Shown here: in pieces, positions 2 through 44,733 of the stretch | How the letters are laid out: every line of letters starts with the position of its first letter | Position numbering within the stretch: the stretch's first letter is position 1 | From: Hemileia vastatrix | Lineage: Eukaryota > Basidiomycota > Pucciniomycetes > Pucciniales > Zaghouaniaceae | DNA length: 64,000 bases | NCBI GenBank assembly: GCA_030280995.1 | Contig: JASXTE010000005.1 | Location: forward strand, 27,809,501-27,873,500 | Reading direction: 5' to 3' | Notes under the pieces: generated by a model | Told to the model about the DNA's origin: nothing | Seen by the model: the letters and a program-made list of their open reading frames with translations, nothing else | Database searches by the model: none | Position numbers and translations under genes: made by a program

Positions 2-2992
2 ATCAAGAAACCAAATGGCAAGCTTAGAGTTGTTCATGATCTTAGGGAATTAAATAGGGTTACAATAAAGGATGCTGGGATACCGCCTAGTGCTGAGGAG
101 TTTGTTGAAGCGTTTGCAGGGAGAGTGTGTTATGGTTTAGGAGATATTATGGGTGGATATGATGAGAGAGAGTTACATCCGGACTCAAGGCCTCTCACTA
201 CATTCGATACGCCACTTGGAAGTTTACAGTTAACAAGATTACCACAAGGAGCAACAAATTTGGTTGCAGTTTATCAAGCTCAGATGGCTTGGATCCTTCA
301 AGACAAAATTCCACAATATGCTGGAATCTTTATAGATGATGGAGGAATTAAGGGACCAACAACCGACTATGATAACCAGGTGTTGGAAGAGAATCCCGGG
401 ATATGCAAATTCATTTGGGAGTTTGCAATTACTTTAGAAAGAATCTTGTTTCAAATTGAAGAGGCTGGTTTAACTATTTCAGGTTCAAAATTTTCCTGTT
501 GTGTGCCAGCCTTAGAAATATTAGGCCATGTGGTATGTAGAGAGGGTAGGATTATGTCCAAGAAGAAAGTTAACAAAATTCAGTCCTGGCCAAGACCCAA
601 GAATACGACCAAAGTTAGAGGGTTTTTAGGCGTTTGTGTATATGTTAGAATGTTTATTAAGGACTTTTCTTCATTGGCAGCTCCATTGAGACGGTTAACA
701 AGAAAGGATGCAGACTGGGAGTGGGATGAAGAGTGTGAGAAGGCGTTTGTGAAGTTGAAGGAGGTTGTAGGGAAGGATTTAGTCCTGCACATGTTGGATT
801 ATGGAAAAGATTCTGGCAGAATTTATTTAGCAGTTGATTCAAGTCAGGTTGCAGCTGGGGCGGTTTTGTCTCAGATAGATAAAGCTGGTTACATCAGGCC
901 AGTTAGGTATGAATCTGTAGTATTTACTGAGGTCAAATCAAGATATTCTCAACCAAAATTGGAATTATGTGGTGTGGCAAAAATACTGAAGAAACTTCAG
1001 CATATTTTGTGGGGGCAACATTTTGAGTTGCAAGTGGATGCGAAATGGTTAATCCAGATGATTAATTCCCCAAGTTTACCAAACGCACCCATGACGAGAT
1101 GGGTAGCTTTTATTCAACATTTTTTGTTCGATTTAGTTAATAAGCGTGGCAAAACTTTTACTATGCCAGATGGTTTATCAAGGAGACCACCCACTGAAGA
1201 AGATTCAGACTCAGAAGAGTTCGATGAAGATATACCTATTATCAAAGCCAGCACTAAAGGAGCTGAAGACTTTCCATACCTCCCCCATGAGGTTAAACTG
1301 GCAGGACTATTGTGTTTAGATTATGGTGTTGATGACCTCCACCAAGAGGATAAACTGGAAAATAGTTTTTATGTTAATAAAGGTGTTGGAAAAGGTGTAG
1401 ATAAATTCGGCAGAGAGGAGGTAGAAGAAGATGTGGTGTATGTAGAGGAAGATGGATTGGTAGTGTGGGATAGTAGTAAATTAAGGAATGGTGTATATGT
1501 TGGAGAATTAGAGAATTTAAATAAAAGGGTGGATAAAGAGAAAGAGGTATTTTTGAATACGGTTTACGAAGGATCCAAAGGTTCAGAAGAAAAACGTCAA
1601 CATAGCTCGATTAAAGATTTATTTAGGGGTCAAAGATTATTGGCTCATTCATGTGCAGGTGATATTGGTGATAGAGAAGTCCCTATTGATGTTATATTAA
1701 TAGATTTTCAAGATGAAGTCTGGGGTCAGACTGGTTTTTATTTTTTGTTAGTCAAATATTTGTTGACTTTAGAGAGGCCAGAAGATTGTGAAGACGATGA
1801 ATGGGTGGCTATCAAGAGGAAGTCATCTACGTTTTATTTATCTGGTCGACGTTTAATGAGGAGGAGGTATCCAAATCCTCAAGTAGTTATAACTCAACAG
1901 AAGGGGCAAGAATTAGTTTTGAAATCACTGCATGAAGATCTCGGGCATAGAGGCGTTGGAGAAACGTTTAGAAGAATTTCTGATCGATTTTGGTGGCCTG
2001 GCATGAAGATGGCTGTTAAACAGTGGGTTCAGTCATGCGAAGAATGTCAAAGACGAAGTTATTTAAGGCCAAAAGAACCTGGACGCGCGACCGGTGAATA
2101 TACGCTCTTTGGGAGAGTTAGTTTAGATGCCGTCCATATAAAAGAGGGACGGTATAAATATTTAATTGTGGCCAGAGATGATTTATCTGGTTGGGTAGAG
2201 GCAGCGCCTCTTATTAATTTAACTGCCAAAAATGTGGCAGAATTTTTTTTGAATAATTGGGTATATAGGTATGGAGTGATGAAATTGGTAACGGTAGATG
2301 GAGGTCCTGAATTTGGGACAGAGTTTAAAGAGGCCGTATTGAAAGTTGGATCAAAGGTTAGGGTAGCAACCCCATATTATCCTGAAGCTGAAGGCATGGT
2401 TGAAAGAGGGCATCAAGTTATCAAGGATGCTTTAGTTAAAATGTGTGGGACAAGTGCCGAAAAGTGGAGGCACTATTTACCTTTAGTTTTATTTGCTGAT
2501 CGAATCACTGCCAAAAGGACTACCGGATTTTCACCTTATGAACTTGTTTTTGGACAGAAAGCAGTTTTACCGGTTGATTTAGAAGCTGAATCATATCTTG
2601 GAGTTGACTGGGACACGGTCAAAACTACTGAAGAATTATTGTGTGCAAGAATGATGCAGCTAGAAAAGAAAGAAGAATATTTAGAAAAGGCATATTCGCG
2701 GATGATGAAGATCCGAAATCAATCAGTTAGATATTGGGATGAGCGGTTGGCACATCGATTAAGGAAACCTTTGAACCCAGGTGATATGGTCTTGGTGTAT
2801 AATAGGAGTTTGGAAAGCCAGTGGGGAAAGATGTTTGCAGATAGGTGGAATGGACCGTATAAAATCAAGGAGCAAGTTTCCGGCGGTTCATATGTGCTAG
2901 AAGAGTTGGATGGAGTAGTATTAAAGAAGAGGGTAGCAGCCAATCAAGTGAAACGGTTCTATCCTAGAGGCACCAGGAGTGCCGAAGTCTAA
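2..2992 (+). CDS. pol: Ty3/gypsy Pol, element A (5' end outside window)
   Basis: Polyprotein for reverse transcription and integration of element A. The frame is open from base 2, so the start lies upstream of the window. Seen in order (residues counted from base 2): RT with an F-I-D-D box near residue 110 (instead of the usual Y-x-D-D) and the RT thumb; an RNase H-type domain with L-A-V-D-S-S near 277; a variable acidic linker; an integrase H2C2 zinc site (H-x4-H, C-x2-C) at about 645-685; an integrase core with D near 708, D near 764 and E near 800; and a GPY/F-type C-terminus. No stop interrupts the 996 visible codons, so this copy looks recently active. Two HP1 hairpin motifs lie inside the linker coding sequence at 1279-1301 and 1336-1358. 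The close paralogue B starts at 8224. Confidence 0.93.
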   Translation: MKKPNGKLRVVHDLRELNRVTIKDAGIPPSAEEFVEAFAGRVCYGLGDIMGGYDERELHPDSRPLTTFDTPLGSLQLTRLPQGATNLVAVYQAQMAWILQDKIPQYAGIFIDDGGIKGPTTDYDNQVLEENPGICKFIWEFAITLERILFQIEEAGLTISGSKFSCCVPALEILGHVVCREGRIMSKKKVNKIQSWPRPKNTTKVRGFLGVCVYVRMFIKDFSSLAAPLRRLTRKDADWEWDEECEKAFVKLKEVVGKDLVLHMLDYGKDSGRIYLAVDSSQVAAGAVLSQIDKAGYIRPVRYESVVFTEVKSRYSQPKLELCGVAKILKKLQHILWGQHFELQVDAKWLIQMINSPSLPNAPMTRWVAFIQHFLFDLVNKRGKTFTMPDGLSRRPPTEEDSDSEEFDEDIPIIKASTKGAEDFPYLPHEVKLAGLLCLDYGVDDLHQEDKLENSFYVNKGVGKGVDKFGREEVEEDVVYVEEDGLVVWDSSKLRNGVYVGELENLNKRVDKEKEVFLNTVYEGSKGSEEKRQHSSIKDLFRGQRLLAHSCAGDIGDREVPIDVILIDFQDEVWGQTGFYFLLVKYLLTLERPEDCEDDEWVAIKRKSSTFYLSGRRLMRRRYPNPQVVITQQKGQELVLKSLHEDLGHRGVGETFRRISDRFWWPGMKMAVKQWVQSCEECQRRSYLRPKEPGRATGEYTLFGRVSLDAVHIKEGRYKYLIVARDDLSGWVEAAPLINLTAKNVAEFFLNNWVYRYGVMKLVTVDGGPEFGTEFKEAVLKVGSKVRVATPYYPEAEGMVERGHQVIKDALVKMCGTSAEKWRHYLPLVLFADRITAKRTTGFSPYELVFGQKAVLPVDLEAESYLGVDWDTVKTTEELLCARMMQLEKKEEYLEKAYSRMMKIRNQSVRYWDERLAHRLRKPLNPGDMVLVYNRSLESQWGKMFADRWNGPYKIKEQVSGGSYVLEELDGVVLKKRVAANQVKRFYPRGTRSAEV

Positions 2993-3180
2993 CTCCGAAA
3001 TGAGGATAAACTACAATTTTAATGACATTTATCAAATTTTATTAAACTCCGAAATGAGGATAAACTACAATTTTAATGACATTTATCAAATTTTATTAAA
3101 CTCCGAAATGAGGATAAACTACAATTTTAATGACATTTATCAAATTTTATTAACCTCCGCAATGAGGATAAACTATCTTC
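2991..3180 (+). repeat. 54-bp tandem repeat at the end of pol A
   Basis: Three nearly identical 54-bp units start at 2991, 3045 and 3099, followed by a partial, diverged fourth unit at 3153-3180. Each unit begins with a CTC-N6-GAG hairpin followed by GATAAACTA, a form of HP1. The period is a multiple of three and one frame reads through as an 18-residue repeat. Copy B has only two HP1 motifs here (10611-10632 and 10658-10680) and copy C one (45804-45825), so A has expanded locally. Confidence 0.9.
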
Positions 3181-3345
3181 TTTTTTTATAAAAAAAAATA
3201 CTTTACTATCGTTACACTGCATATGGTCGACGAAACTATGATGAACTTAACGAAATTCAAAAAGACCTTCTTTGAAATTTTCAAAAACTTAAAATTCTTA
3301 AAATATGGGTGAAGATAGTGTTGGAAAATTTTAAAATTTATTGGA

Positions 3346-3523
3346 AGAAGTGTTCACAGGGGAACCTTCTTAATTTAATATTGGCAAGTGCGGGGGTAAT
3401 TGATGGGCTGGCTGCTCTATACACAATTACCCCATAATGTTCGTTTCCAAAATTTTCCCTGTTTCTAGTTGAATCCTGGCTTTGTCTTTTAATTTTAGGA
3501 AGTCCACTAAGACTATAAACTGG
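3346..3523 (+). ncRNA. HP0-HP2-HP1 hairpin module, element A
   Basis: Three potential hairpins in fixed order. HP0 (3346-3370) pairs AGAAG with CTTCT. HP2 (3393-3433) pairs GGGGTAATTG with CAATTACCCC perfectly around a loop containing GGGCTGGCTGCTC. HP1 (3501-3523) has AGTC/GACT and ends AAACTGG. The same order and spacing (67-71 nt between HP2 and HP1) recurs in B once and in C three times, with compensatory changes in the stems. Whether it acts as RNA is inferred. Confidence 0.6.
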
Positions 3524-3648
3524 AACGAATCAAGAGACACCGCTCTCAACGCCGGATTCAAGATTTTTTTATTTTGTTTTTGATTTTTTATGTTAGATTG
3601 TGATTTCTTTTCTTTAATATATATTATGAATTAATGTAAAGGTGATGC

Positions 3649-3844
3649 TCACTGGTGGTCTCTAATCATTTTTTATAAATTGGAGGGAGCCCACCCAGTG
3701 ATCATCATTATAAAAATTATCTTCTAAAAACTTTCATTTATTTTCTTTTCTTTCAATTTCTCAAAATTGTGTAACCACATCAAGTTGCACTTGGATGTGG
3801 GTATGATGTCGAGGGTATGGCTCATCAAATGGCCGGGGGGCATC
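3649..3844 (+). ncRNA. HP3, HP4 and HP5 hairpins, element A
   Basis: HP3 (about 3649-3712) pairs GATGATCACTGG-like arms; A has one mismatch. HP4 (3775-3800) pairs CCACATC with GATGTGG, with an inner AAGT/ACTT. HP5 (3805-3844) pairs GATG with CATC and encloses GGCTCATCAAATGGCC. All three recur in B and C with stem changes that keep pairing. Confidence 0.6.
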
Positions 3845-3847
3845 TTT

Positions 3848-4045
3848 AAAAAAAAAAAAAAAAATCATTTATTTTAAATGGTAAAAAAAAATAAATAATA
3901 ATAATAATAAAATAACTAAAATAAATAAAAAAAAATAAATAAAATAAAATAAAATAAAAATAAAATAAAATAAAATAAATAAAAAAAATAAAAAATAAAA
4001 AAATAAAAAATAAAAAAATAAAAATAAATAAATAAATAAAAGGTA
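3848..4045. repeat. AAAT/AAAAT low-complexity tract
   Basis: Runs of A broken by single T (AAAT, AATAA, AAAAT units). It sits between HP5 and antisense gene 1. Copies B and C have comparable AT tracts at the same relative place. Confidence 0.85.
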
Positions 4046-4126
4046 TTTTAGTTTTAGGTAGTTTAGATGTTTATATTTTATTTTTCAAACATTATTCAAG
4101 AAAGCTACATACCAGGAAGAACACCA

Positions 4127-5140
4127 TCAAGGGTGGTTATCTTTTGAAGAATCGAAATTAGAAAATTTAGAAGGACCTTGATTGATTTCCTGGGATTCGA
4201 ATCTTATTTCACGGTCACGATAGTGATGAAGCCAGTTGGCTATTTTGAAAAGGTCTCTTAACAGTTGCTCTCTCATCCAAGATTCTGATCTATCAGAGGG
4301 CGGGTATCGTTGGAAATAAGCAATAAGGTTATTAAAATTAGCAAAAAGCTTTTCAGACACTAGGTGAATTGGAACTCTAGGGAAGCTTGGATTAGGTTCT
4401 GGTAGCTCATAAGCTGAATATGAAATTGGAGAACCGGTGGACGCTTATCAAATTAAAATATCAGCAAATTAAAACCTGAAGATTAAGAAAATAAAAAGAG
4501 AAAACTAACCTGTGTCAACACTATCATGATCATAGATAAATGGCTTACTTGGTAATGGAGTGGGATTTTTTATGTTTAGAAAAGGGTTTTTTATTTTTGA
4601 TAGATGAGGAGGACTGGTGTTGGATTTGGTGTTTGAAGTAGATGTTCTGGGCCTTTTGGATGAAACAAGAGAAGATGAAGACTGCTGGCTATTATAGGAC
4701 CTTTTGTGCTTCAAGATGTTGGAAGAAGGAGAAGAATTGTTAGAAGGTTGAAGCATGGCCCTGGGAGCAGCAAGAGTTCTTGGGGGACTAGCAGCAAGTC
4801 TAGATTGGAGAGAAGGACCCAGAGGATTAGGTGATGGAGAAAGATTTAAATAGGCTGATGGAGAAAAAGGGATGGGATCTTTTGAGGTTGATGGAATAGG
4901 GGGTGGAGTAGAAGGTGAAGAAGAAGGAAGAGGTTTGCAGAAGGCGGCGAAGCTAGTAGCAGTGATGGGGAAAGAACCACAGTTCAAGCCAGAACATTTT
5001 CTTTTCTTCTCATAGCAGGATAAACAGGCCCTGTTATAAGTGTGCTTTTGCCAGTTAAAAGAGAAGATACATTCCCTATGGGTGAAGGCACAGTATTTGC
5101 AAGATTGATCAGCTGAAGCAATGAAGTCAGAAGGTTTCAT
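4127..5140 (-). CDS. Antisense Zn2Cys6-like protein 1, element A (spliced)
   Basis: Not a recognised named family. The model is two exons, 5140-4510 and 4443-4127, with a 66-bp GT-AG intron (4444-4509) that joins in phase, giving 315 aa. An upstream in-frame start at 5203 is possible. The N-terminus carries C-x2-C-x6-C-x14-C-x2-C-x6-C with a basic K-K-R-K-C end, the spacing of a fungal binuclear zinc cluster with a long linker. A Ser/Pro/Lys-rich middle follows, then a helical C-terminal domain. It lies antisense to the retroelement, downstream of pol. The HP1 array (5233-5703) is directly upstream. The counterpart in element C is 42959-44385. A DNA-binding role is inferred from the Cys pattern only. 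Confidence 0.7.
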
Positions 5141-5232
5141 CTTGTTAGGAGATATTTTTTGAAGAAGAAAACTTGAAAATAGGATGAAGAAAGTTGGTGG
5201 CAAAATCTGGGTTCAAGGATAGAGAAGTTGTT

Positions 5233-5703
5233 AGGTCCACCAAGACCTTAAACTGGACTGTTATCAAGCTGTTGGGTCCACCATGACCTTAAACTGGATT
5301 TCTTATCGATCAAATGTTTGGTCCACCATGACTTTAAACTGGCAGTTCATTCATTGTTTTAGTCCACTATGACTTTAAACTGGAAAATTAATATCTGCAG
5401 GATAATTCAACATTCATTGGACCACTATGGCCTTATACTGGATTACTTGTCGATCAAATGTTTGGTCCACTATGACATTAAACTGGATTATCAAATTTAT
5501 TCAATCTTTGGTCAAGCCTAGGCCTTACTTAGGAATTTATCAAGTTATTTATGCACCTAAACGATCTTTGGTCTACCAAGACCATAAACTGGCAATCGAT
5601 TATATGTTTGGTCCACCAAGACTATAAACTGGAATGTCAATCTTGTTTGGATAACTCAATTCAATCTTTTAATTTATCACTGTCCACTAAGACTCTAAAC
5701 TGG
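5233..5703 (+). repeat. HP1 hairpin array, element A
   Basis: About ten copies of a 22-23 nt motif spaced 20-100 nt, at 5233, 5274, 5320, 5361, 5419, 5464, 5517 (degenerate), 5570, 5610 and 5681. Consensus: (A/G)GTC-CACCAA/CACYAT-GAC(T/C)-TTAAACTGG. Stem bases vary together (GGTC with GACC, AGTC with GACT), with some G-T pairs. The array lies roughly 90-560 bp upstream of the antisense gene 1 start, in the opposite orientation to that gene. Confidence 0.85.
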
Positions 5704-6289
5704 TTATTCAATTATTTCTGGAATTGGGTGCTGATAGCTTTAGGAGGTTAAAATTTTAGGTGGTGATGATGCTAAAGAAAGCATAATGGTTAATTAGGTG
5801 AAATTTGTGGCGCTTTAACATGGTCTAAAGTTAATATTATTATTGGAATCCTGGCAAAAGTATTTTATGGGTTTGCTGTATAGCAAAGTTTGAAAATTGT
5901 GATGAAGGAATCAGAAGTTAGGATGGTAGTTGGATTTTAGGGAATGATTTTTTTAGTGCCTCATAGTTAGGCCATTTTTTTGGTGTGAAGCTTGGAGGAC
6001 CTTATGGCGAGATTGGAATCATAGAATTCGGCTCAGTGGGGGGCCCTATGAGGTTGGAATCAGGAGTATTCGGCTCATAGGAAGATCCACTCTCTCAATG
6101 CTGTGACAAGAAGGAAGACTGGTATATGGGAGTCTGAAGGGATTCAAACCTTGCTCTCAGTAGTGGAATCATCACAAGATTTATATTATTTTATTTTATG
6201 TTATATCAAGCCAGAGAAGAAAGAAAACATCATTTATGTTGAAAGTTTAAGAAGACCAAGCAAAAACAAAATTTTATCAAGTTATACTG
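5704..6289. other. Conserved non-coding spacer, element A
   Basis: No convincing gene. It is largely shared with 12765-13330 in copy B. It contains two imperfect direct repeats near 6010-6080, each with TTGGAATCA and ATTCGGCTCA, conserved in B at about 13065-13140. Confidence 0.6.
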
Positions 6290-6982
6290 TTAGAAAAGAT
6301 AACTTCTTTGAAATTGTTCAACATCATTATCAAAGCTTTGCATTAAAATTCTTCTTTTCATGAGGTCTTCATGGTTATTAGCTGGAGTTTCTTGAAAATA
6401 GGCCAGAATTTTTCGTTTCAACTCATTAGTAAAGTCAAGAAAAAGATAGCGATGAAAATTTGGGTAATGATTGATATAGTCCGTCTTCACTCTACCAACA
6501 TCATCAGTGTTGGTTATTTCGACAGCTAGAAGTTCAAATATGTTATTAAGTCATAGGTTTAGTCAATTTTGATTAAATGTTTTTTTTAGTAAAATAAATA
6601 GGGTCTTACATTTAGAGCCAGGAAACATAGTCTCAGCAAAGTTAGTTGGGGGTACTGGCGTTATAGGATTAGGATCTTGTGAAGGCAAAATTAGGCCGGG
6701 ATCCGCTGATGAAGATTGAACTTTTGAAGCTGTTTTTGATCTTATTCGTTTTAAGAAGACAGGAATTTTGGATCGCTTTTTAGAAGTTGAGGGATCAGGG
6801 AGAGCTGCTGGTCCTAAATATACGTTTGTTTTAGAAGGAACTATTGGCCGGTTGCATTTGATTTTTTTCACATGGCATAAGTCGCAAGCTGTCCTGCCAG
6901 GAAGATTAGGGTTGGACATTAAACAAGGTACCTGGTATCGAGCGCAGAGTTCACATGGAGAGACAAGCTCTTTGGAAGACAT
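6290..6982 (-). CDS. Antisense Zn2Cys6-like protein 2, element A (spliced)
   Basis: Two exons, 6982-6610 and 6525-6290, with an 84-bp GT-AG intron (6526-6609) that joins in phase to give 202 aa. The N-terminus has C-x2-C-x6-C-x12-C-x2-C-x6-C; its second half, A-C-D-L-C-H-V-K-K-I-K-C, is close to the classic first half of fungal Zn2Cys6 clusters. The C-terminus is helical, with Y-F-Q-x-T-P-A followed by a D/E-rich helix and R-R. The same C-terminal pattern is intact in the element C homologue at 41651-42258 despite strong divergence. The gene starts about 120 bp from the 3' LTR and points away from it, so the PPT/LTR edge may serve as its promoter. A regulatory role is inferred. Confidence 0.72.
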
Positions 6983-7090
6983 ATTGATGAAGATGAATTT
7001 TATAGTCAATTAAAGGGATGGTGGTTGAAGGTTAAAGATGAATATTGTGTTCAACCACTTATGCAAAGTTTTAAGAATGGGGACATTCTC

Positions 7091-7104
7091 GATTGGAGGG
7101 AGGA
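7091..7104 (+). other. Polypurine tract, element A
   Basis: GATTGGAGGGAGGA lies immediately before TGTGGTAGCC, the start of the 3' LTR. The same tract precedes the B LTR (13415-13428) and, on the other strand, the C LTR. Confidence 0.75.
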
Positions 7105-8223
7105 TGTGGTAGCCTAAAGTTTAGTATGGCTCCTAAGTACGTAAATGGAGTTATTATGGTGTGCAAGATTGGCGTTATTATTTTTTATATAAGGGTTTTA
7201 TTTGATTTATTGGAGTTTAAAATATGAAGAAATTGGTCACGAGCAAATGCCTACACAATTACAATTTATTTTACGGAGAAACTTATTTTTACGGTCTAAA
7301 AAATTTATAAGTATCAAGTCAAGTCACTCAAGAACCTTGGGAAATTTTCCCAGAATTTTTACTATTTTTCTTATATTTTTAAATGAATTTTAAAGTTTTA
7401 TAGAAATATTTATGTTTTCAAAAATTACTTAACTTTGATGAATTTTCACGGGGTAGTTAGAGCTGCGCAGACTACGAAAATTAGTTTGATGTGTAAAGGG
7501 GAAGTAGCTCTATTATGTGTAATTTTTCTAGATTTTTTATTATAGTTTTAAGGTTCTAATTGAGTCTGGAAGTCCGGACGGACTCCGTACGGACTCCATT
7601 TCAACTCCGTACGGACTCCGTACGGGCTCCGGATTGACTCTGGAAGAGCTCTGGAGGGGAAAACTTAGGCACGTGACTAGGAATACTTAAGCGCTTCTCA
7701 AACTCGAAATTGAGAGGGGGGACACATCATACAGCTTAATCATTAACCACCACGGTCTCATTTTTTATTACTCAACAAATTAAATAAGTTATAATACCCT
7801 TATAACATTTATTATTTTTACATAACATTTTAGAAATACAATTCAACAATTTAAATCACACTTCATATAGGGTATCTTTAGAAAGGTCTTCATCGCTGGG
7901 ACTTGATTATTGCCGTCTCATATAAATTTAAATTATTATAAAAACATAAAAGTCAATCTTTTCAGATCCTTCACTGGTACACCTTAATTGTTGTTATCAG
8001 TATTTCTTTTATCAACAGCCACTTTCTTTAAATCTCAATAAGCGTTAAATATTTTAGAGTTTCATTATTTTTATCAATCAGATCTAAGTAGATTGGTTAG
8101 CTTAGTGATTTAGAACACCCATTTTGTTATTTTTATTGGAAGGACGGGGTTTTCAGCTAAATCCACATATCTCCTCCGGATTCTGCTTACAGCAAGGCGA
8201 CTGTAAGAGTTTACCTTACTATA
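7105..8223 (+). repeat. LTR of element A (TGTGGTAGCC type)
   Basis: About 1.12 kb, closely matching 13429-14545. It starts TGTGGTAGCC after the PPT and ends near TTACCTTACYATA; the exact 3' edge is uncertain by a few bases. It contains short repeats such as TCCGTACGGACTCCGT around 7575-7620. Instead of host DNA, the next base begins pol B in mid-RT. Confidence 0.85.
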
Positions 8224-10635
8224 ACGACTGAAGTTAGAGGGTTTTTAGGCATTTGTGTATATTTTAGAATGTTTATCAAGGACTTTTCTTCATTGGCAGC
8301 TCCATTGAGACGGTTAACGAGAAAGGATGCAGACTGGGAGTGGGATGAAGAGTGTGAGAAGGTGTTTGTGAAGTTGAAGGAGGTTGTGGGGAAGGATTTA
8401 GTCCTGCACAAGTTGGATTATGGAAAAGATGCTGGCAGAATTTATTTAGCAGTTGATTCAAGTCAGGTTGCAGCTGGGGCGGTTCTGTCTCAGATGGATA
8501 AAGCTGGTTACATCAGGCCAGTTAGGTATGAATCTGTAGTATTTACTGAGGTTGAATCAAGATATTCTCAACCAAAATTGGAATTATGTGGTGTGGCAAA
8601 AATACTGAAGAAACTTCAGCGTATTTTGTGGGGGCAACATTTTGAGTTGCAAGTGGATGCCAAATCGTTAATCCAGATGATTAATTCCCCAAGTTTACCG
8701 AACGCACCCATGACGAGATGGGTAGCTTTTATTCAACATTTTTTGTTTGATTTAGTTCATAAGCCTGGCAAAACTTTTACTATTCCAGATGGTTTATCAA
8801 GGAGACCACCCACTGAAGAAGATTCAGACTCAGAGGAGTTCGATGAAGATATACCTATTATCAAAGCCAGCACTAAAGGAGCTGAAGACTTTCCATACCT
8901 CCCCCATTAGGTTAAACTGGCAGGACTATTGTGTTTAGATTATGGTGTTGATGACCTCCACCAAGAGGATAAACTGGAAAATAGTTTTTATGTTAATAAA
9001 GGTGTTGGAAAAGGTGTAGATAAATTTGGTAGAAAGGAGGTGGAAGAAGATGTGGTGTATGTAGAGGAAGATGGATTGGTAGTGTGGGATAGTAGTAAAT
9101 TAAGGAATGGTGTATATGTTGGAGAATTAGAGAATTTAAATAAAAAGGTGGATAAAGAGAAAGAGGTATTTTCGAATACGGTTTACGAAGGATCCAAAGG
9201 TTCAGAAGAACAACGTCGACATAGCTCGATTGAAGATTTATTTAGGGGTCAACAATTATTGGCTCATTCATGTGTAGGTGATATTGGTGATAGAGAAGTC
9301 CCTATTGATGTTATATTAATCGATTTTCAAGATGATGTCTGGGGTCAGACTGGTTTTTATTTTTTGTTAGTCAAATATTTGTTGACTTTAGAGAGGCCAG
9401 AAGATTGTGAAGACGATGAATGGGTGGCTATCAAGAGGAAGTCATCTACGTTTTACCTATCTGGTCGACGTTTAATGAGGAGAAAGTATCCAAATCCTCA
9501 AGTAGTTATAGCTCAACAGAAGGGGCAAGAATTAGTTTTGAAATCACTGCATGAAGATCTCGGGCATAGAGGCGTTGGAGAAACGTTTAGAAGAATTTCT
9601 GATCGATTTTGGTGGCCTGGCATGAAGATGGCTGTTAAACAGTGGGTTCAGTCATGCGAAGAATGTCAAAGACGAAGTTATTTAAGGCCGAAAGAACCTG
9701 GATGCGCGACCGGTGAATATACGCTCTTTGGGAGAGTTAGTTTAGATGCCGTCCATATAAAAGAGGGACGGTATAAATATTTAATTGTGGCCAGAGATGA
9801 TTTATCTGGTTGGGTAGAGGCAGCGCCTCTTATTAATTTAACTGCCAAAAATGTGGCAGAATTTTTTTTGAATAATTGGGTATATAGGTATGGAGTGATG
9901 AAATTGGTAACGGTAGATGGAGGTCCTGAATTTGGGACAGAGTTTAAAGAGGCCGTATTGAAAGTTGGATCAAAGGTTAGGGTAGCAACCCCATATTATC
10001 CTGAAGCTGAAGGCATGGTTGAAAGAGGGCATCAAGTTATTAAGGATGCTTTAGTTAAAATGTGTGGGACAAGTGCCAAAAAGTGGAGGCACTATTTACC
10101 TTTAGTTTTATTTGCTGATCGAATCACTGCCAAAAGGACGACCGGATTTTCACCTTATGAACTTGTTTTTGGACAGAAAGCAGTTTTACTGGTTGATTTA
10201 GAAGCTGAATCATATCTTGGAGTTGACTGGGACACAGTCAAAACTACTGAAGAATTATTGTGTGCAAGAATGGTGCAGCTAGAAAAGAAAGAAGAATATT
10301 TAGAAAAGGCATATTCGCGGATGATGAAGATCAGAAACCAATCAGTTAGATATTGGGATGAGCGGTTGGCACATCGATTAAGGAAACCTTTGTATCCAGG
10401 AGATATGGTCTTGGTGTATAATAGGAGTTTGGAAAGTCAGTGGGGAAAGATGTTTGCAGATAGGTGGAATGGACCGTATAAAATCAAGGAGCAAGTTTCC
10501 GGCGGTTCATATGTGCTAGAAGAGCTGGATGGAGTAGTATTGAAGAAGAGGTTAGCGGCCGATCAAGTGAAACGGTTCTATCCTAGAGGCGCCAGGAGTG
10601 CCGAAGTCTACCTCCGCAATGAGGATAAACTATAA
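8224..10635 (+). pseudogene. pol: Ty3/gypsy Pol, element B (5' truncated, one stop)
   Basis: The copy begins at the codon matching base 605 of element A, in the RT thumb, so RT catalytic motifs and gag are missing. RNase H, the integrase zinc site (H-x4-H, C-x2-C), the D, D, E core and the GPY/F end are present and nearly identical to A. One in-frame TAG (8908-8910) replaces the GAG of an HP1 motif; the frame is otherwise open from 8224 to 10635. The C-terminus runs slightly past that of A and includes an L-R-N-E-D-K-L peptide encoded by HP1. Abutment to the A LTR suggests recombination or deletion, not a separate insertion. Confidence 0.9.
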
Positions 10636-11023
10636 TACCAACAAAATTTTATGGATTCCTCCGCGACGAGGATAAACTATCTTCTTTTTATCAAAATACT
10701 TTACTGTCGTTACACTGCATATGGGCGACGAAACTATGATGAAACTTAACGAAATGCAAGAAATTCTTCTTTGAAATTTTCGAAATTTAAAATTCTTAAA
10801 ATATGGGATAAGATAGTGTTGGAAAATTTTAAAAAATTTATTGGAAGAAGTGTTCACAGGGGAACCTTCTTAATTTAATTTTGGCAAGTGTGGGGGTAAT
10901 TGATGGGCTGGCTGCTCTATACACAATTACCCCATAATGTTCGTTTCCAAAATTTTCCCTGTTTCTAGTTGAATCCTGGCTTTGTCTTTTAATTATAGGA
11001 AGTCCACTAAGACTATAAACTGG
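10611..11023 (+). ncRNA. HP1 pair and HP0-HP2-HP1 module, element B
   Basis: Two CCTC-N6-GAGG HP1 motifs (10611-10632, 10658-10680) are followed by HP0 (10846-10870), HP2 (10893-10933, perfect 10-bp stem) and HP1 (11001-11023). Spacing equals that of element A. Confidence 0.6.
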
Positions 11024-11150
11024 AACGAATCAAGAGACACCGCTCTCAACGCCGGATTCAAGATTCTTTTTACTTTATTTTCTTTTTGATTTTTTTATGT
11101 TAGATTGTGATTTATTTTCTTTAATATATATTATGAATTTTTGTAAAGGT

Positions 11151-11351
11151 GATGATCACTGGTGGTCTCTAATCATTTTTATAAATTGGAGGGAGCCCAC
11201 CCAGTGATCATCATTATAAAAATTATCTTCTAAAAACTTTCATTTATTTTATTTTCTTTTCATTTTCTCAAAATTGTGTAACCACATCAAGTTGCACTTG
11301 GATGTGGGTATGATGTCGAGGGTACGGCTCATCAAATGGCCGGGGGGCATC
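11151..11351 (+). ncRNA. HP3, HP4 and HP5 hairpins, element B
   Basis: HP3 pairs GATGATCACTGG (11151-11162) with CCAGTGATCATC (11201-11212) perfectly over 12 bp. HP4 (11282-11307) and HP5 (11312-11351) follow, as in A. Confidence 0.62.
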
Positions 11352-11496
11352 TTTTAAAATTTTAATTTTGATAATTTTTTTATTATTACTTTTTTTATCT
11401 TTCTTTTCACATTTGCTTATCTTTCTTTAAAAATTAAATTTTAACTCTTATTTCAAAACTTTTTTTTCTAAATCTTATATTTTAAATTAAAAACAA

Positions 11497-11745
11497 ATAA
11501 AAATAAAATAAATAAATAAAAAATAAAAATAAAAATAAAAATAAAAATAAAAATAAAAATAAAAATAAAAATAAAAATAAAAATAAAAATAAAAATAAAA
11601 ATAAAAATAAAAATAAAAATAAAAATAAAAATAAAAATAAAAATAAAAATAAAAATAAAAATAAAAATAAAAATAAAAATAAAAATAAAAATAAAAATAA
11701 AAATAAATAAAAATAAAAATAAAATAATAAAAAAAAAAAAATGAA
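11497..11745. repeat. (AAAAT)n microsatellite
   Basis: A nearly pure run of AAAAT pentamers, roughly 40 units, with AAAT edges. The reverse complement of the unit forms the large satellite at 62671-64000. Confidence 0.95.
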
Positions 11746-11897
11746 AAAATTAATTAATTAAATCAAAAATTATTATTATATTTCTTAGTTTTATTTTTCA
11801 GTCTTCATTCTTTTTTAGTTTTATTCATTTAGTTTAGACAGGAAACAGGGTCTAGGGGAACTCAATACCTATGGGATTTTACTTCAAGACATCTGTT

Positions 11898-12764
11898 AGT
11901 CCTCCAAGACTCTAAACTGGCTACTGTTCAAGACGTTCTTTAAGGTTTTTTATACATATTTTGGAGCTTTTAGTCCTCCAAGACTTTAAACTGGCTACTG
12001 TTCAAGACATTCTTTAAGTTTTTTTTTATATACGAATTTTGGAGCTGTTAGTCCTCCAAGACTTTAAACTGGCTAATTTTCAAGACTTTCATTAAAGATT
12101 TTATATTGGAGCTGTTAGTCCTTCAAGACTTTAAACTGAATTTCAAGGATGTTCAAGATTTTATGGATATTTTTGGAGATGGATTTTTGTATTTTTTTTT
12201 TTAATCAAATGTTAGGTCAACCAAGACCTTAAACTGGAGTGTTATCAAATGTTAGGTCCACCAAGACCTTAAACTGGGCTGTTATCAAGCTGTTAGGTCC
12301 ACCAAGACCCTAAACTGGACTATTATCAAGCTGTTAGGTCCACCATGACCTTAAACTGGATTTCTTATCGATTAAATGTTTGGTCCACCATGACTTTAAA
12401 CTGGTATTTCATTCATTGTTTAGTCCACTATGACTTTAAACAGGAAAATTAATATCTGCAGGATAATTCAACATTCATTGGTCCACTATGGCCTTATACT
12501 AGATTACTTGTCAATCAAATGTTTGGTCCACTATGACATTAAACTGGATTATCAAATTTATTCAATCTTTGGTCAAGCCTAGGCCTTACTTAGGAATTTA
12601 TCAAGTTATTTATGCACCTAAACAATCTTTGGTCCACCAAGACTATAAACTGGCAATTGATTATATGTTTAGTCCACCAAGACTTTAAACTTGAATGTCA
12701 ATCTTGTTTGGATAACTCAATTCAATCTTTTAATTTATCACTGTCCACTAAGACTCTAAACTGG
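11898..12764 (+). repeat. HP1 hairpin array, element B (expanded)
   Basis: About fifteen HP1 motifs, at 11898, 11972, 12050, 12117, 12215, 12255, 12296, 12337, 12382, 12422, 12480, 12525, 12631, 12671 and 12742. The first four use AGTC-CTCCAA-GACT and are absent from A; several GGTC/GACC copies look like a local duplication of about 40 bp. The antisense genes that flank this array in A and C are missing here. Confidence 0.85.
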
Positions 12765-13414
12765 TTATTCAATTATTTCTGGAATTGGGTGCTGATAAGC
12801 TTTAGGAGGTTAAAATTTTAGGTGGTGATGATTCTAAGGAAAGCATAATGAGTAATTAGGTGAAATTTGTGGCGCTTTAACATGGTTTAAAGTTAATATT
12901 ATTATTGGAAGCCTGGCAAAAGTATTTTATGGGTTTGCTGTATAGCATAGTTTGAAAATTGTGATGAAGGAATCAGAAGTTAGGATGGTAGTTGGATTTT
13001 AGGGAATGATTTTTTAGTGCCTCATTGTTAGGCCATTTTTGGTTTGAAGCTTGGAGGACCTTATGGCGAGATTGGAATCATAGAATTCGGCTCAGTGGGG
13101 GGCCCTATGAGGTTGGAATCAGGAGTATTCGGCTCATAGGAAGATCCACTCTCTCAATGCTGTGACAAGAAGGAAGACTGGTTAATGGGAGTCTGAAGGG
13201 ATTCAAACCTTGCTCTCGTAGTGGAATCATTACAAGATTTATATTATTTTATTTTATGTTATATCAAGCCAGAGAAGAAGAAAGAACATTTTTATTATAA
13301 AGAATTAAAAGAAGACCAACTAAAACAAATTTATCAAATTATTTTATTAGAAAAGATAATTCTTTTGGAATTGCTCAACCACTTATGCAAAGTTATAAGA
13401 ATGGGGACATTCTC
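12765..13414. other. Non-coding 3' region of element B (gene 2 deleted)
   Basis: Matches 5704-6320 of A, then jumps at about 13377 to sequence matching A from about 7045. About 730 bp carrying antisense gene 2 is absent. In A this segment is bounded by short direct repeats (TTGTTCAAC near 6320, GTGTTCAAC near 7050). No gene seen. Confidence 0.75.
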
Positions 13415-13428
13415 AATTGGAGGTAGGA

Positions 13429-14545
13429 TGTGGTAGCCTAAAGTTTAGTATGGCACCTAAGTACGTAAATGGAGTTATTACGGTGTGCAAGATTGGCGTT
13501 ATTATTTTTTATATATAAAAGGGTTTTATTTAATTTAATTGAGTTTTAAATATGAAGAAATTGGTCAAGAGCGAATGCCTACGCGAAAACAATTTATTTT
13601 ACGGAGAAAACTTATTTTTATGGTCTGAAGAATTTATAAGTATCAAGTCGAGTCACTCAAGAACCTTGGGAAGGTTTCCCAGAATTTTTACTATTTTTCT
13701 TATATTTTTTTAAATGAATTTTAAAGTTTTATAGAAATACTTACGTTTTTAGAAATTACTTAACTTTGATGAATTTTCACAAGGTGATTAGAGCTGCGCA
13801 GACTACGAAAAATAGTTTGGAATGTAAAAGGGAAGTGGCTCTATCATGTGTAATTTTTCTAGATTTTGTATTATAGTTTTAAAGGTTCTAATTGAGTCCG
13901 CTTGGACTCCGTTTGGACTCCGCTTGGACTCTGTACGGACTCTGTACGGGCTCCGGGGTGACTCTGGGAGAGCTCTGGAGGGAAAAACTTAGGCACGTGA
14001 CTAGGAATACTTAAGCGCCTCTCAAACTCGAAATTGATGGGGGGACACATCATACAGCTTAATCATTGACCACCACTGTCTCATTTTTTATTACTCAACA
14101 AATTAAATAAATTTGTAATACCCTTATAACTTTATATTTTATATATAACATTTTAGAAATACTACTCAACAATTTAAATCACACTTCATACAGGGTATCT
14201 TTAGAAAGGTCTTCATCGCTGGGACTTGATTATTGCTGTCTCATATAAATTCAAATTATCATAAAAACATAAAAGTCAATCTTTTTAGATCTTTCACTGG
14301 TACACCTTAATTGTTGTTATCAGTATTTCTTTTATCAACAGCCACTTTCTTTAAATCTCAATAAGCGTTAATTATTTTAGAGTTTCATTATTTTCATCAA
14401 TCAGATCCAAGTAGATTGGTTAGCTTAGTGATTTAGAATTCCCATTTTGTTATTTTATTGGAAGGACGGGGTTTTCAGCTAAATCCACACATCTCCTCCG
14501 GATTCTGCTTACAGCAAGGCGACTGTAAGAGTTTACCTTACCATA
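13429..14545 (+). repeat. 3' LTR of element B
   Basis: About 1.12 kb, starting TGTGGTAGCC after a polypurine tract (13415-13428) and ending near TTACCTTACCATA. Close copy of 7105-8223. The target duplication cannot be tested because B has no 5' end. Confidence 0.85.
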
Positions 14546-16507
14546 CCGGCAAGGCCATTACTAAGAACAAGTTCAATTTGACTAAGATGCACCTTGAATA
14601 ACCATGAGCAATTCACATCTGAGATTTGTTCAATCACAGAAATCATAGCAATCCTAAGACAGGTATGTAGAATTCTTGGAATTTCTCGCATTAGTGAAAA
14701 GTGATGAAAACGACCTGATTAAAACATGAATTCATCAATTAAAATTCCAAATTTTGAAAGCTTTAGAGCTGACTGAAATCATATATTTCTGGAAGCTTTT
14801 TAATAGAAATAGTTGTTTCTAATGAGCTTTTACTAAGAGATAAAGATGAAATCTCCAAGTTTTCAGAATGAAGAGTGGAAAAGGGACTCTTTGATTGTTA
14901 GATTATTTCTAGAATCATAAAAAATAGATTAGAAATACTAATTTTGTTGCTCTGGTATATTATATTGCTCACCACTAGGGAAATTCAGGTTTTCATTGGA
15001 ATGCTCTAAAACATTGAAAAGATGCGCTTATTTTCTCAAAAAGGCTACCCAAAATATATTTTAGATTTGGAGCTATAATATAAATATATTTTAATTTCAC
15101 TTACATTCATTGTAGGTTGATATAAGAGCAGCAGCCCGCTGATCTGCCAACTGATGAGAGAGAAGAGTTGGAAGATGTAGAAAGCTCTAAAGTACTAAGA
15201 AGTAGACACAATGCAAGATGGGTTGGTTCTTCTTTTCAATTTCTAAAAAGAAGTGCCTGCCACTCTTATTTTAAAGACAGCACAATAATGTGTAACACTA
15301 ATATCTGACTAGATAGTTTATAAGTTGAGAGATGAGTTAAAAGATAAGGAAAAACAAATATTATTATCTTGATATTTCTATTCTTAATAAGTGCTAGTAT
15401 CCACAGATACTCCCACTTGAAGCTCTCTCTTTGAATATGCCTTATTATAGCAATAAAATAACTCTAATAATATTTTATCCTACTGAATCTATATATTCTC
15501 TCTGTGTTGCTCTTTTTCACTATACTATATGAAATACGCACACAGACGCAGAAACTCTAAAAGACTCAGAATATCTCCAATATGCTCTTTAACACTTAAT
15601 TGCAGAAAAATCCAATCTCTTACTGTTATCAGAGTAATCACAAAATAGACAAATCACTATATACCACAATATATTTCAAAAGTATATTATATGAGGCTTT
15701 AATGTTTTTAATGTAATGACTGATTCAAATAATATATTTTTTACCTGAAAACTACTACTCCTATTAGATAGCCTTTCATTCTTATATTTTTCAGCACTCC
15801 AGAAACAGTTCCCTAGTGTATCTCCAGCACTGTCTCTAGCACCACATTAGCAAAACAATAACTAATCCATTAGTAAACTAAATACACCACTTGTAAAAAA
15901 TACAGCGCCTAAACATAACCTATGCTTACTAATGCTAGTTTTAACTTGTTTCGCTCATATTCCACATGCCCGCTTATGACTATACCTTTGCATTGTTTCA
16001 GCACTACTTCCCATGTTGACACATTTAAGTGTCTATCCTTGTCTCTTTGACTCTTGGGTAGTTTTGTGATCAAGTCCCCATCCTTCTTGCTTCATTACTA
16101 TTTCCATAGTTCTGAAAATTCACTTAACTAGTTAGCCTCTGAAACTTACATTACCTGCTTCAGTAAGTTACCACTCTAGCTGCTGTGAAGCATACTATGT
16201 ACTTGAGGCCTTCCTTGAGCCATAGTTCCTTCCCTAATGCATAACACATAATAATTATGTAGAATACAAATCCATAATGTTCAGTGCTTGCGCTCCTAAG
16301 TTGATAACACACAATTCCCTTTGTGCCGCACATCTTGCTTCAAAATCCTCTTCTGTGCTTCTCTTTCCCTTTTTTCTTTTTTGAAAAAACACACAGTTAC
16401 ATATTTATAATAGTGCTATTTACTGCACTATAACTCCCCTTTGTTCTTCCTGGGCTACACAAGTTGAATGGTCCAAGAGATAGGTTACCTGAAATGCATG
16501 TACCACA
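14546..16507. other. Unassigned AT-rich DNA ending in an old LTR edge
   Basis: No gene recognised. The right edge, ending ACCACA at 16507 and followed by TCCTCCCTCTA, matches the LTR/polypurine junction of C-like elements on the minus strand. At least its right part is therefore probably the 3' LTR of a decayed minus-strand element (E). The left border of that LTR could not be found. Confidence 0.4.
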
Positions 16508-33774: not shown

Positions 33775-36700
33775 TTAATTCTTGAATCTCAATAAGTATG
33801 CTGTACCTTTTTCAGCAGTGACTATTCTGTCAATTAGAATTTTTTCAATTTCTGCTGTTTCAGTGATTTCATTTGGGGTTTTCTTTGGTCTTCCCCTCCT
33901 TTTTGGAAATAAATCACTATTGGATGTGTAAGGTTTCAGAAGAGATATTGGAAAAATAGGATGTTTTCTGTCATATGGAGAATACAAAATAACCTCAACT
34001 GAATTATCTCCAATCATTCTTCTGACAACAAATGGACCAACAAATGGATCTTTCAATTTTTTATTACCTTGTAAGTTAAAGTGGACTGTAGAAATCAACA
34101 CTTCATCACCCTTTTTAAAAGTGTATTCTTTATGGGATATGTCCCATCTTTTCTTCTCATATTCAAATGATTTTTCAATACATTGTTGAGCATGATTTCT
34201 GCAAATTTGTTGCATTTGAAGAAAAGACTTTACACCAGGATGTATATCCAATTTAGGTATTTTGTTATTGAGAATTTGGGCAGGAGTGTTTGGAACATAT
34301 CCAAGCCAGAGCTCAAAAGGCTTTCTTTGAGTAACAGAATGAACAGTGCTGTTATAAGTAAATTCCAACCCACAAAGTAAAGTAACCCAATCATGAGTAA
34401 ATCTGTCATTATCTTTATACTCAAGGCCAAAGGCACAATACCTTCTTATCATGTCCTCTAAAGTCTGAATCATTCTTTCAGCTAAGCCATCAGTCTGTGG
34501 ATGATGGGCAGTAGAAAGTTTCAGATCACAACCACAAACATCCATCAGAGACATCCAAAATTCAGAAGTAAATTTAGGTTCTCTGTCAGAGATTATGGCT
34601 TTAGGAAAACCAGCAGTATTAAACATATGAGACCACCATAAGAAAGCTAATTCTTTAGTGGAAACATCCTTGTGAGTAGGGATAAATTTACACATTTTAG
34701 TGAATCTATCCACAATAACCCAACAAGAGTTATAACTGTCTTTTCCAGCAATTTGTAATCCTGTTACAAAATCCATGTTTATTATTTGCCATGGTGCATC
34801 AGGAGGTTCAATATGTTGCATTAATCCTGATCTTTTACCAGTCAATCTTTTTGATTTTTGGCAAGAATCACAAGATTCAACATATAATTTGGTGTCTTCA
34901 GACATATTTACCCACCAAGCAGTGTTCTTAATTCTGATCATTGTTTTTTCAAGATCAAAATGTCCAGCCAATATGTCATCATGACAAATTTTCAAGATGA
35001 TTTCTCTCATAGAAGGAGGAATAACAATAACATTACTCAACTTTCTTCTATAATATAGATATCCTTCATCAATTGAAAATTTACCTTTTTTCAAATCCTT
35101 CTGGTACTTTGGTGGAAGGGTTTTAATTAATGCTTGTATTGAAGCATTCTTTGGATCATTTGATATGGTGCATAACTTTTTCAACCCATTGTCCTTATCA
35201 TATGAATCCAGAATAATCTGTAATAGCTCTTCCTCCATATCAACCACATATATCCCATGTATATGAATAATTTCATCCTCAGGGTCATAAGCAGGATTAG
35301 AGTCATTATTTGGTAAAGGTAACCTAGATAACATATCCACATTTGAGTGAACAATACCCGCCCTATGAATAATTGTCATTCTCCCTCTGTATTCTTGAAC
35401 AGCCAACTGCCATCTAAACATATGTCTGTTTGGTGTTTTCAAGTTCAAAAGGGATTTAACTGCACTGCATTCAGTGACAAGTTCAAATTTCTGGTCATCT
35501 AGGTAATAATGAAGCTTTTCTAGAGCCCACACTACAGCTAAACATTCCAATTGAGTAGCACCATATTTCAATTCACTATTTCTCAAGGTTCTTGAAATAT
35601 AACAAATTACTACTTCTGAAACTTTATCATTTATCACTTGTTTTTGATTGAGGGCAGCACCAAGACCAATGAAACTGGCATCAGTATACAAAACAAATGG
35701 TTGATTAAAGTCAGGTAAATCAAGAATTGGTGCTGACATCAAACAGTGTTTCATAGTGTCAAAGGCTCTCTGTCTTTCACTATTCCAGACAAAAGCAACA
35801 TCCTTTCTAGTTAATTGGGTAAGGGGTAAAGCTATAACTTGGTAGTTTTTAATATACTGTCTATAGTATCCACACATTCCCAAAAAACTCTGGAGCTCTC
35901 TAACTGTAGTAGGAGCCTTCACCTGTTGTATGGCTGCCACTTTGTTTTGGTCAACACATATCTGTAATCCTGAAACAACATGACCAAGAACTTTTAAAGA
36001 ATGAAAACCAAATTTACATTTCTTCAAGGAAAGTTTCATATTTATTTCATCCATTTTCTGGAACACTTTACACAGGTGGTTAAGATGGTCCTCAAATGTT
36101 TTTGAGAATATAATAATATCATCAATATAAACCATCAGCCATCCTTCAATAATCTCTTTATGGAATGTGTAATCCATGACTTTTTGGAAAACTGAAGGGG
36201 AATTTTTAGGGCCAAAAGGCATCCTAATATACTTATAAATACCCATATGAGTAGAAATCATCAGAAAATTCTGAGAATTTTTCTCAACAGGTACCTGGTG
36301 ATATCCCTTGTTACCATCCAAACAGCTGATATATTTAGCTCCCTGTAAAGTAGCATGTATAGAGCTAATTCTAGGTAAAGGGTAGATATCATCAACAGTA
36401 TAAGTATTTAGTGCTCTATAATCACCACATAACCTGGCTTTATCTTTCTCATAAGGAATTAGGACAGGTGAGATAACACAATATTTAGGTGTTTCAACTA
36501 CCTTTTCAATAATATTCATTTTCAAAAGGGTAGAGATATTGTCTTCAATATCTTTTCCCTTTGTGGGAGAAGCGGGATAAGGCTTCTTCTTTAAACTAGG
36601 TGGTATATCAGTTAATGGACAAGACAATGAAAGTCTCATTTCCTCTTTAACTAATCCCAGTTTATGTGACCCATGAGCAAAGGCCATAGGAAAAGACTTT

Positions 36701-39699: not shown

Positions 39700-40477
39700 T
39701 TTAAGCTTTAACTGAAATGAAGAAAAGAGACAATAGATGAATTAGTTTTTTATTTTTAATATTTATTTAACAGAAATAAAATAAAAATAATAAAAAAAAA
39801 TTTTTTTAGGATAAAAATTAACTAAATAAAATTAATTTATTAATTCAAAAATAATTTTAAAACCAGGCTTATAATATAATCAACTGAAGAAATAAATTAA
39901 AATTAATTAATAATAATTATTTTCAGAATTTAAATCAACTAAATAATTACCAGGACTTAATGTCAACTGAAGTAATCAAATATGAGTTTTATTAATTAAA
40001 AAATTTTTTTTGAACTACCAGGACTCAAGGTCAACTGAAGTAATTAAATATGAATTATTTATTAATTAAAAAAAATATTATTGTCAGGACAATTTGTCAA
40101 CTGGAACAATTAAAATTTAATCAGGACAAATGTCAACTGAAAAATTATAATAATTAATATTAAAATATAATTATTTTATTACTTCTGTGACTAAGAACAC
40201 TTATTGCTCTATTATGGTCAACCAGGAAAAATAAAAAAAAAATATAATAATAAAGATAAATTCCAAATTACCAGACACCTCCCCCTGTAAAATGAGCAAA
40301 TTAATACCACTTACAGAGTGCTGAGTAAAAGGAAATACGTAGCAAATGAAGAGTGAAGAGTAACCCACAAATAGTAATATCAATAATTACCACGATATAT
40401 ACAACGTTTAGTCAGTATATGAACCTAAGTTTTGGAGCGCGGTTCAATTCCCATTTGCAGCAAAACTTTTGTCACGT
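39700..40477 (-). other. 5' leader of element D with a repeated motif
   Basis: AT-rich leader between the D start codon and the C insertion. A motif CAGGAC-N4..6-GTC-AACTGRA occurs at 39950-39972, 40018-40040, 40085-40106 and 40122-40140, with a weaker copy at 39863-39889. The GAC/GTC arms can pair. Read on the + strand it resembles HP1 of elements A-C (short stem, then AACTG). Confidence 0.6.
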
Positions 40478-41586: not shown

Positions 41587-41650
41587 AATGTCCGCATTCT
41601 TTCTTCATCTAACCACCATTTTTAACCTTCTTCCCAAATCTGCCTCTGAA

Positions 41651-42258: not shown

Positions 42259-42319
42259 GTTTGATTCAGAAAGAAAAATTGATCACACCCTCTATAGGAT
42301 GTAACCACAAAACAACCCT

Positions 42320-44641: not shown

Positions 44642-44733
44642 TATATGATGAGATACTAATATATTAGAATTAAAAATTCATAAATAAAATGAAATAAAAT
44701 GAAATAAAATAAAATATAAAAAATAGTACAAAT

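Follow-up and report, generated by a model that had tools for sequence, protein, structure and literature searches.

HP1 and its carrier elements

The stretch analysed here (the window) comprises 64,000 nucleotides of contig JASXTE010000005.1 (positions 27,809,501–27,873,500) of the rust fungus Hemileia vastatrix and contains three copies (A, B and C) of one Ty3/gypsy family of long terminal repeat (LTR) retrotransposons, with A and B on the plus strand and C on the minus strand. A 23-base unit, HP1, made up of a four-base stem strand, a six-base loop, the complementary four-base strand and a nine-base tail, occurs 52 times in the window and always within this family, in agreement with the roughly 50 repeats described in a first-pass annotation of the sequence. 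The list of copies was assembled by hand from motif scans, with matches at 14464, 36679 and 51998 dropped as chance (Table 1).

Pfam detects reverse transcriptase (RT), RNase H and integrase domains in the pol frames of both A and C, and additionally an aspartic protease in C; together with the LTRs, these domains identify the carrier as a Ty3/gypsy element. Element C spans 13.1 kb from LTR to LTR, with LTRs that are 96% identical; its length, a structured region of about 4 kb and two antisense open reading frames (ORFs; as1 and as2) with cysteine clusters 3′ of pol set it apart from Ty3/gypsy retrotransposons otherwise alike in protease, RT, RNase H, integrase and LTRs. Elements A and B arose by a recent tandem duplication (605–8226 against 8224–14548, 92–97% identity), so that although all three elements carry the motif, as previously noted, the copies in A and B are not independent. 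Both boundaries of the duplication lie inside a retroelement, and B lacks two segments that carry the antisense ORFs in A and has a longer HP1 array.

All copies are in the sense orientation of their element, with 36 of 36 in A and B on the plus strand and 16 of 16 in C on the minus strand. Arrays behind pol, which lack a sense ORF of 150 codons or more, hold 33 of the 52 copies (9, 15 and 9); the remainder lie in the linker between RNase H and integrase (six), between protease and RT (two), at the ends of pol (seven) or singly (four). The stop codon of pol B overlaps the last spacer base of the copy at 10611. Every site named in the first-pass annotation holds the motif to within 1–2 bases, but its list did not include the copies at 8898, 8955, 10611, 10658, 11001, 45306, 45569, 45825, 47382 and 47418.

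The abundance of HP1 in the window is far above expectation. A pattern for the common type matched 40 sites, compared with 0.01 expected from dinucleotide shuffles, and a pattern for the pol-end type matched seven sites, compared with none. Even with a very loose scan (any three-pair stem, a loop of 4–8 bases and WTAAACT), the 41 sites found exceed the shuffles, which average 13.6 sites and reach 24 at most; 36 of these 41 sites were family copies, and all 36 had a six-base loop although 4–8 bases were allowed. The three inner stem pairs are intact in 48 of the 52 copies, and many of the copies are tandem duplicates. No family-like copy was found by the scans in the other Ty3/gypsy element of the window (33775–39741).

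Pairing within the motif

The copies fall into two classes. Class I comprises the seven copies at the pol ends, with loops CGAAAT, CGCAAT and CGCGAC and tail ATAAACTAC/T. The 45 copies of class II represent 34 distinct sequences, in which loop base 1 is mostly C, loop base 5 is always A, the TAAAC core is mostly kept and the tail terminates in CTGG, CTGA or CTGC, apart from a few copies whose ends have decayed. In class II, loop bases 3–5 can pair with tail bases 7–9 and form a mini-pseudoknot.

Over the 34 distinct class II sequences, pairing is possible in 95.6% of stem cells and 92.2% of loop–tail cells, and falls to 13–42% when the partners are slid as a control. Two-sided change is seen in four of the seven pairs; pair 7–23 occurs as C-G, U-A and G-C and pair 8–22 as C-G, U-G and U-A. 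Three of five covariation measures lie beyond all 500 shuffles. The earlier observation that stem bases change together is thus confirmed, and the selection on RNA structure that it was taken to indicate is supported and extends further, to loop–tail pairing and to conserved codons in the pol linker. Natural compensation can be followed within array B, where CTCCAA/CTGG at 12050 becomes CTTCAA/CTGA at 12117, and is also present in CAGCAT/CTGC at 49461 and 49527 and in CACTAT/CTAG at 12480.

In six copies of array C, loop C3 faces a tail that ends in TGA; this mismatch weighs against the loop–tail helix. However, GG follows in each of them, so that C3 can pair one base further on with the A bulged. 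This was examined in a larger set consisting of the window and loci L089–L134, of which L125–L134 were picked for the C3/CTGA mismatch. There, a CTGA tail is followed by GG in 12 of 12 cases with loop C3 and in 0 of 20 with loop U3, suggesting that bulging of the A allows the pairing to be retained. Pair 7–23 can form in 52 of the 63 distinct class II sequences of this set, against a mean of 37.3 and a maximum of 45 in 2000 shuffles.

Copies within coding sequence were examined for codon usage. In the window, those in the linker and between protease and RT have the stem CCTC/GAGG exclusively (one B copy with a broken pair). Between pol A and pol C, 359 of 712 aligned shared residues other than Met and Trp use the same codon (50%; 25 of 76 for Leu), whereas all 11 shared residues of the two linker motifs do so, and the codons of the pol-end motif of B and C are identical from CTC to CTA. 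Identical codons are expected if the RNA, and not the peptide alone, is kept. Equal codon conservation also occurs in other stretches of pol, so that it favours selection on RNA as support and not as proof. A protein motif alone was considered and rejected: L..E.KL is present in three of 120 listed pol homologues and in none of these in the linker. Among the first 45 listed homologues, it is likewise absent from the linkers of those in which an anchor was found, although one of them (P0042) has TPHEAKL there.

Relationship to coremin

HP1 resembles coremin, an Xrn1-stalling RNA of viruses in which a short stem closes a six-base loop and is followed by the spacer NWUAAACUNN (PMC10520033). Coremin sites are reported in untranslated, intergenic and coding parts and at stop codons of viruses, including fungal hypoviruses and chrysoviruses; mutational tests are reported to show that six-base loops require YGNNAD, and the loops CGAAAU and CGCAAU stall Xrn1 in a beet virus context (PMC10520033). 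Loops in which the G was moved gave no resistance in the viral context, nor did a loop ending in C (CGAAAC), although two reported chrysovirus motifs end in C (PMC10520033). The beet virus motif is reported to require a second hairpin, and the structure of coremin was called unsolved in 2023 (PMC10520033).

The first-pass annotation knew of no described motif of this kind. This view is not upheld, since the pol-end copies match the six-base-loop form of the viral motif (GUCCGAAGACGUUAAACUAC) and those in the arrays appear to be a variant. HP1 has the 5′ hairpin of coremin (3–4 base pairs, four- or six-base loop). The loop rule YGNNAD is obeyed by six of the seven class I copies in the window, the exception being CGCGAC, which ends in C. 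The class I spacer GATAAACTAC/T is close to the viral GUUAAACUAC, with GATAAACTAC or GATAAACTAT agreeing at nine or eight of ten positions, while class II typically agrees at 6–7 of ten. HP1 and coremin share a stem of 3–4 base pairs, a six-base loop with C first and A fifth and, in part, the NWUAAACUNN spacer, as well as CGAAAU/CGCAAU loops at the pol ends and a placement in 3′ regions, coding sequence and stop codons. They differ in that HP1 is carried by an LTR retrotransposon in tens of thousands of copies per genome and lacks the second hairpin, and class II swaps the loop G for three loop–tail pairs. Because the second hairpin is missing, HP1 is termed coremin-like. Loop G2 could also pair with the final spacer base (t9) in seven of seven class I copies in the window, and this pair was considered as a further element of the fold.

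Other known RNAs are less similar. The Xrn1-resistant RNAs (xrRNAs) of flaviviruses and of tombusviruses/solemoviruses share the proposed function and a pseudoknot but are far larger folds, and no such Rfam match was found in the window. Rfam returned no fitting family for the window, its six matches at E up to 1 all being weak miRNA models. H-type −1 frameshift pseudoknots of luteoviruses and poleroviruses have a similarly short stem 1, a two-base loop 1, a three-base-pair stem 2 and an A-rich loop 3; unlike these, the coding copies of HP1 are without a slippery heptamer and the arrays are non-coding. A frameshift signal was rejected, as the canonical heptamer occurs within 25 bases upstream in none of ten coding copies.

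Distribution in the genome and in other sequences

In the host genome (747.6 Mb), for which pattern counts are lower bounds for large families, the common type was found at at least 115,219 sites with up to three mismatches, compared with 61 for the reversed pattern. Exact matches to the class I pattern, which itself demands YGNNAD, number at least 13,782 (control 0). Loop C3 combined with tail G gave at least 38,747 exact sites (control 0), and loop C3 with another last base at least 13,489 (control 6), most among those listed being CCCCAA/CTGA.

A random sample of 20 stretches of 10 kb on two contigs, one of them short by 6,523 bases, was scanned with a strict pattern demanding TAAACT and loop A5. 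Of 25 matches (control 4), 21 are family-like and fall in L108, L109 and L110, which encode parts of the same element family, and four, elsewhere or beside them, are chance-like. L107 contains gag and protease of the family and no HP1 copy. Other Ty3/gypsy pols (22–29% identity) in L099, L101, L102, L105, L106, L107 and L115 are without a family-like copy. Within this sample HP1 is restricted to one retroelement family. An array in L110 (5813–6563) lies before the RT region, with loop CAGCAA, a tail that is mostly CTGC, 45/105-base spacing and stem CCTC/GAGG.

Class II matches elsewhere (11 IMG/VR and 24 GTDB contigs, one match each) nearly all lack full stems and were taken as chance. A third class II pattern matched 11 loci. 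One IMG/VR contig contains a single perfect class II copy (L005:108–129), which may reflect chance or contamination.

The canonical six-base-loop coremin pattern, on the other hand, matched 42 IMG/VR contigs, compared with none for the reversed pattern, and a looser pattern with loop bases 2–4 and the last base free matched at least 120. The loci retrieved (L047–L088 and L136–L230) are double-stranded DNA phages and prophages. In the 98 distinct contexts obtained by pooling both sets, loop base 2 is G in 93; without the G/C class preselected by the canonical pattern it is G in 60 of 65. The loops are CGAAAT (46), CGCAAT (23), CGAGAT (9), CGTAAT (7), CGGGAT (4), CGGAAT (3) and others (6). Of the 42 canonical motifs, which are mostly intergenic, 35 lie outside same-strand mechanical ORFs of 60 codons or more. 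A tRNA check of ten of the 42 loci placed the motif four and six bases behind a tRNA gene in L064 and L079 and inside a tRNA cluster in L053; L064 is Synechococcus phage S-CBWM1 (MG450654), in which the motif is at L135:806. Bacteria lack Xrn1, but many possess the 5′–3′ nuclease RNase J, and the phage motif could possibly act as a stop for this enzyme.

Proposed function

Decapped retrotransposon RNA is attacked by Xrn1 from its 5′ end. The covariation of HP1 and its likeness to coremin suggest that it is a coremin-like RNA motif that probably acts as an exonuclease stop against Xrn1 on the Ty3/gypsy RNA of this rust fungus. After decapping, Xrn1 would meet HP1 and stop; the multiple copies behind pol would act as a series of stops, with stable 3′ fragments a few kilobases long as the product, and the copies in the pol linker and the protease–RT region would give longer fragments still containing pol sequence. 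Copies in coding sequence may also slow ribosomes. Class II would then be a variant of coremin in which the three loop–tail pairs may take over the roles that the classical form gives to the loop guanine and to a second hairpin. In a beet virus, coremin leaves a stable 3′ RNA fragment, and such a fragment is reported to compensate for a silencing suppressor of reduced strength (PMC5086608). In yeast, the RNA of Ty3 moves through bodies that contain Xrn1; the gathering of this RNA and Gag depends on Xrn1 and Lsm1, and packaging drops when these are lost (PMC4589538), so that a motif holding Xrn1 could also serve particle assembly.

Several observations weigh against this reading. The loops of class II violate YGNNAD in 44 of 45 copies, and in the wider set only nine of 18 distinct class I-type sequences fit, the others ending in C or lacking G2. 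No second hairpin is enriched behind the spacer of the 52 copies (mean best −0.64 kcal/mol, compared with −0.50 kcal/mol in shuffles). Two covariation measures, the counts of pairs that change on both sides and of further pair types, lie within the shuffles (70 and 119 of 500; 93 and 112 for the helix alone), and pair 8–22 is not above shuffles in the larger set (57 of 63; mean 55.5, maximum 61). The copies are related by duplication, and the covariation counts overstate the number of independent events. The G2–t9 pair of class I was dropped, as t9 is free in the phages. In addition, a 5′-truncated RNA lacks the end needed for reverse transcription, so that its benefit to the element is not obvious.

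The sense orientation, the covariation at the RNA level and the many copies per RNA, which suit multivalent binding, would also be compatible with a protein-binding signal such as a Gag-binding packaging or assembly site, in which case the likeness to coremin would stem from a shared small fold. The lack of a second hairpin fits this explanation, but the class I loops are those shown to stall Xrn1 in experiments and viruses, and packaging sites rarely occur in dozens of repeats or inside pol, so it is considered unlikely. Slightly less likely still is a main role in translation, with the knots slowing ribosomes in or behind pol and Xrn1 resistance being secondary or absent. Coremin is reported to slow and block scanning ribosomes in vitro (PMC10520033), and HP1 occurs both within coding sequence and at a stop codon of pol; against this, the arrays that hold most copies are non-coding and the coding copies have no slippery heptamer before them.

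Two further explanations were considered. Since GGTC-N6-GACC forms a dyad and the arrays lie between as1 and as2 in A, C and L108, HP1 could be a DNA operator bound by the Zn2Cys6-like antisense proteins. A dyad does not predict the loop–tail compensation and the bulge rule, however, nor the single orientation of 52 of 52 copies and their presence in pol, making this very improbable. A neutral minisatellite combined with a short protein motif (LxxExKL), both propagated by duplication, is marginally the least credible: it would account for the many tandem duplicates and the peptide shared by coding copies, but not for the compensatory changes, the conserved codons, the likeness to a known RNA motif or the retention of stem and tail in non-coding arrays.

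Neighbouring features

The 4 kb from pol to the 3′ LTR also hold conserved structures HP2 (five copies), HP3 (three) and HP4 (four), with one, one and five two-sided compensated pairs, respectively. HP2, a hairpin of ten pairs whose loop hardly varies, is found in addition to the copy in Table 1 at 10870–10956, 45620–45706, 45366–45450 and 42445–42535, and in five of five copies a class II HP1 copy starts about 45–60 bases behind the aligned stretch. HP4 (further copies at 11268–11360, 44922–45025 and 44730–44815) is RNA-like with a conserved CTCATCAA loop and has no Rfam match.

The antisense ORFs flank the array in A, C and the randomly sampled L108 (5221–5609 and 7072–7389), where they are 47–56% conserved, and show Zn2Cys6-like spacing with the basic half second. 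No Pfam family matched as2 of A or as1 of C, and no homologue of the as2 protein was found at E 0.001 among 373 candidates.

The top homologues of pol have 58% identity. Among named homologues, the closest come from rust fungi: Puccinia striiformis (49–56% over the best stretch), Puccinia coronata (50%) and Austropuccinia psidii (52%, covering one quarter of the query). Identities of 56 and 71% were obtained with two contigs assigned to a bacterium (Sphingobacteriaceae), which look like contaminating fungal DNA. No relatives of pol were confirmed in an IMG/VR scan. A TATTTT repeat array (62601–64000, 1.4 kb, 98% matches) continues past the end of the window.

Table 1. Positions of HP1 copies and other features in the window
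Feature	Position	Strand	Remarks
Class II array, element A	5234–5703	+	9 copies
Class II array, element B	11898–12764	+	15 copies
Class II array, element C	42319–42806	−	9 copies
Class II copy, pol A linker	1279–1301	+	encodes LPHEVKL
Class II copy, pol A linker	1336–1358	+	encodes LHQEDKL
Class II copy, pol B linker	8898–8920	+	one stem pair broken
Class II copy, pol B linker	8955–8977	+	
Two class II copies, pol C linker	47360–47418	−	at 47418 and 47382
Two class II copies between protease and RT, element C	49439–49527	−	at 49527 and 49461; loop CAGCAT, tail CTGC, compensated pair
Four class I copies, pol A end	2992–3176	+	at 2992, 3046, 3100 (loop CGAAAT) and 3154 (loop CGCAAT)
Two class I copies, pol B end	10611–10680	+	at 10611 (CGCAAT) and 10658 (CGCGAC)
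Class I copy, pol C end	45803–45825	−	loop CGCAAT
Single class II copy, element A	3501–3523	+	behind HP2
Single class II copy, element B	11001–11023	+	
Single class II copy, element C	45284–45306	−	behind HP2
Single class II copy, element C	45547–45569	−	behind HP2
pol of element A	2–2992	+	RT, RNase H, integrase; 5′ end outside window
pol of element C	45594–48782	−	RT, RNase H, integrase
3′ LTR, element C	40479–41569	−	LTR pair comparison
5′ LTR, element C	52517–53589	−	LTR pair comparison
HP2	3370–3456	+	element A, followed by class II copy
HP3	3635–3725	+	long hairpin
HP4	3762–3852	+	two-domain structured element, compensatory pairs
Antisense ORF as2, element A	4505–5140	−	C-x2-C-x6-C-x14-C-x2-C-x6-C
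Antisense ORF as1, element A	6563–6982	−	C-x2-C-x6-C-x12-C-x2-C-x6-C
Antisense ORF as1, element C	41642–42034	+	
Antisense ORF as2, element C	42959–43135	+	shortened by stop codon

Implications

In the literature searched by title and abstract opening, a scope outside which most subscription papers fall, coremin is not reported from any retrotransposon or DNA phage, and Xrn1-resistant RNAs are described only in viruses; here the motif and a pseudoknotted variant fill a retrotransposon family. It is conceivable, although speculative, that coremin is a general, tiny 5′-exonuclease stop common to RNA viruses, DNA phages and LTR retrotransposons, which in this family has been amplified to about 100,000 copies with a new loop–tail pseudoknot and yields element RNAs that resist decay, retain Xrn1 and guide the RNA towards assembly into particles or out of the reach of silencing. 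The phage copies suggest that the motif may also work in bacteria, and the natural loop–tail compensations offer a ready mutant set for the structure of coremin. If HP1 stops Xrn1, this one fungal genome would contain tens of thousands of potential exonuclease roadblocks, with a bearing on how retrotransposons survive RNA decay and on the dependence of yeast Ty elements on Xrn1.

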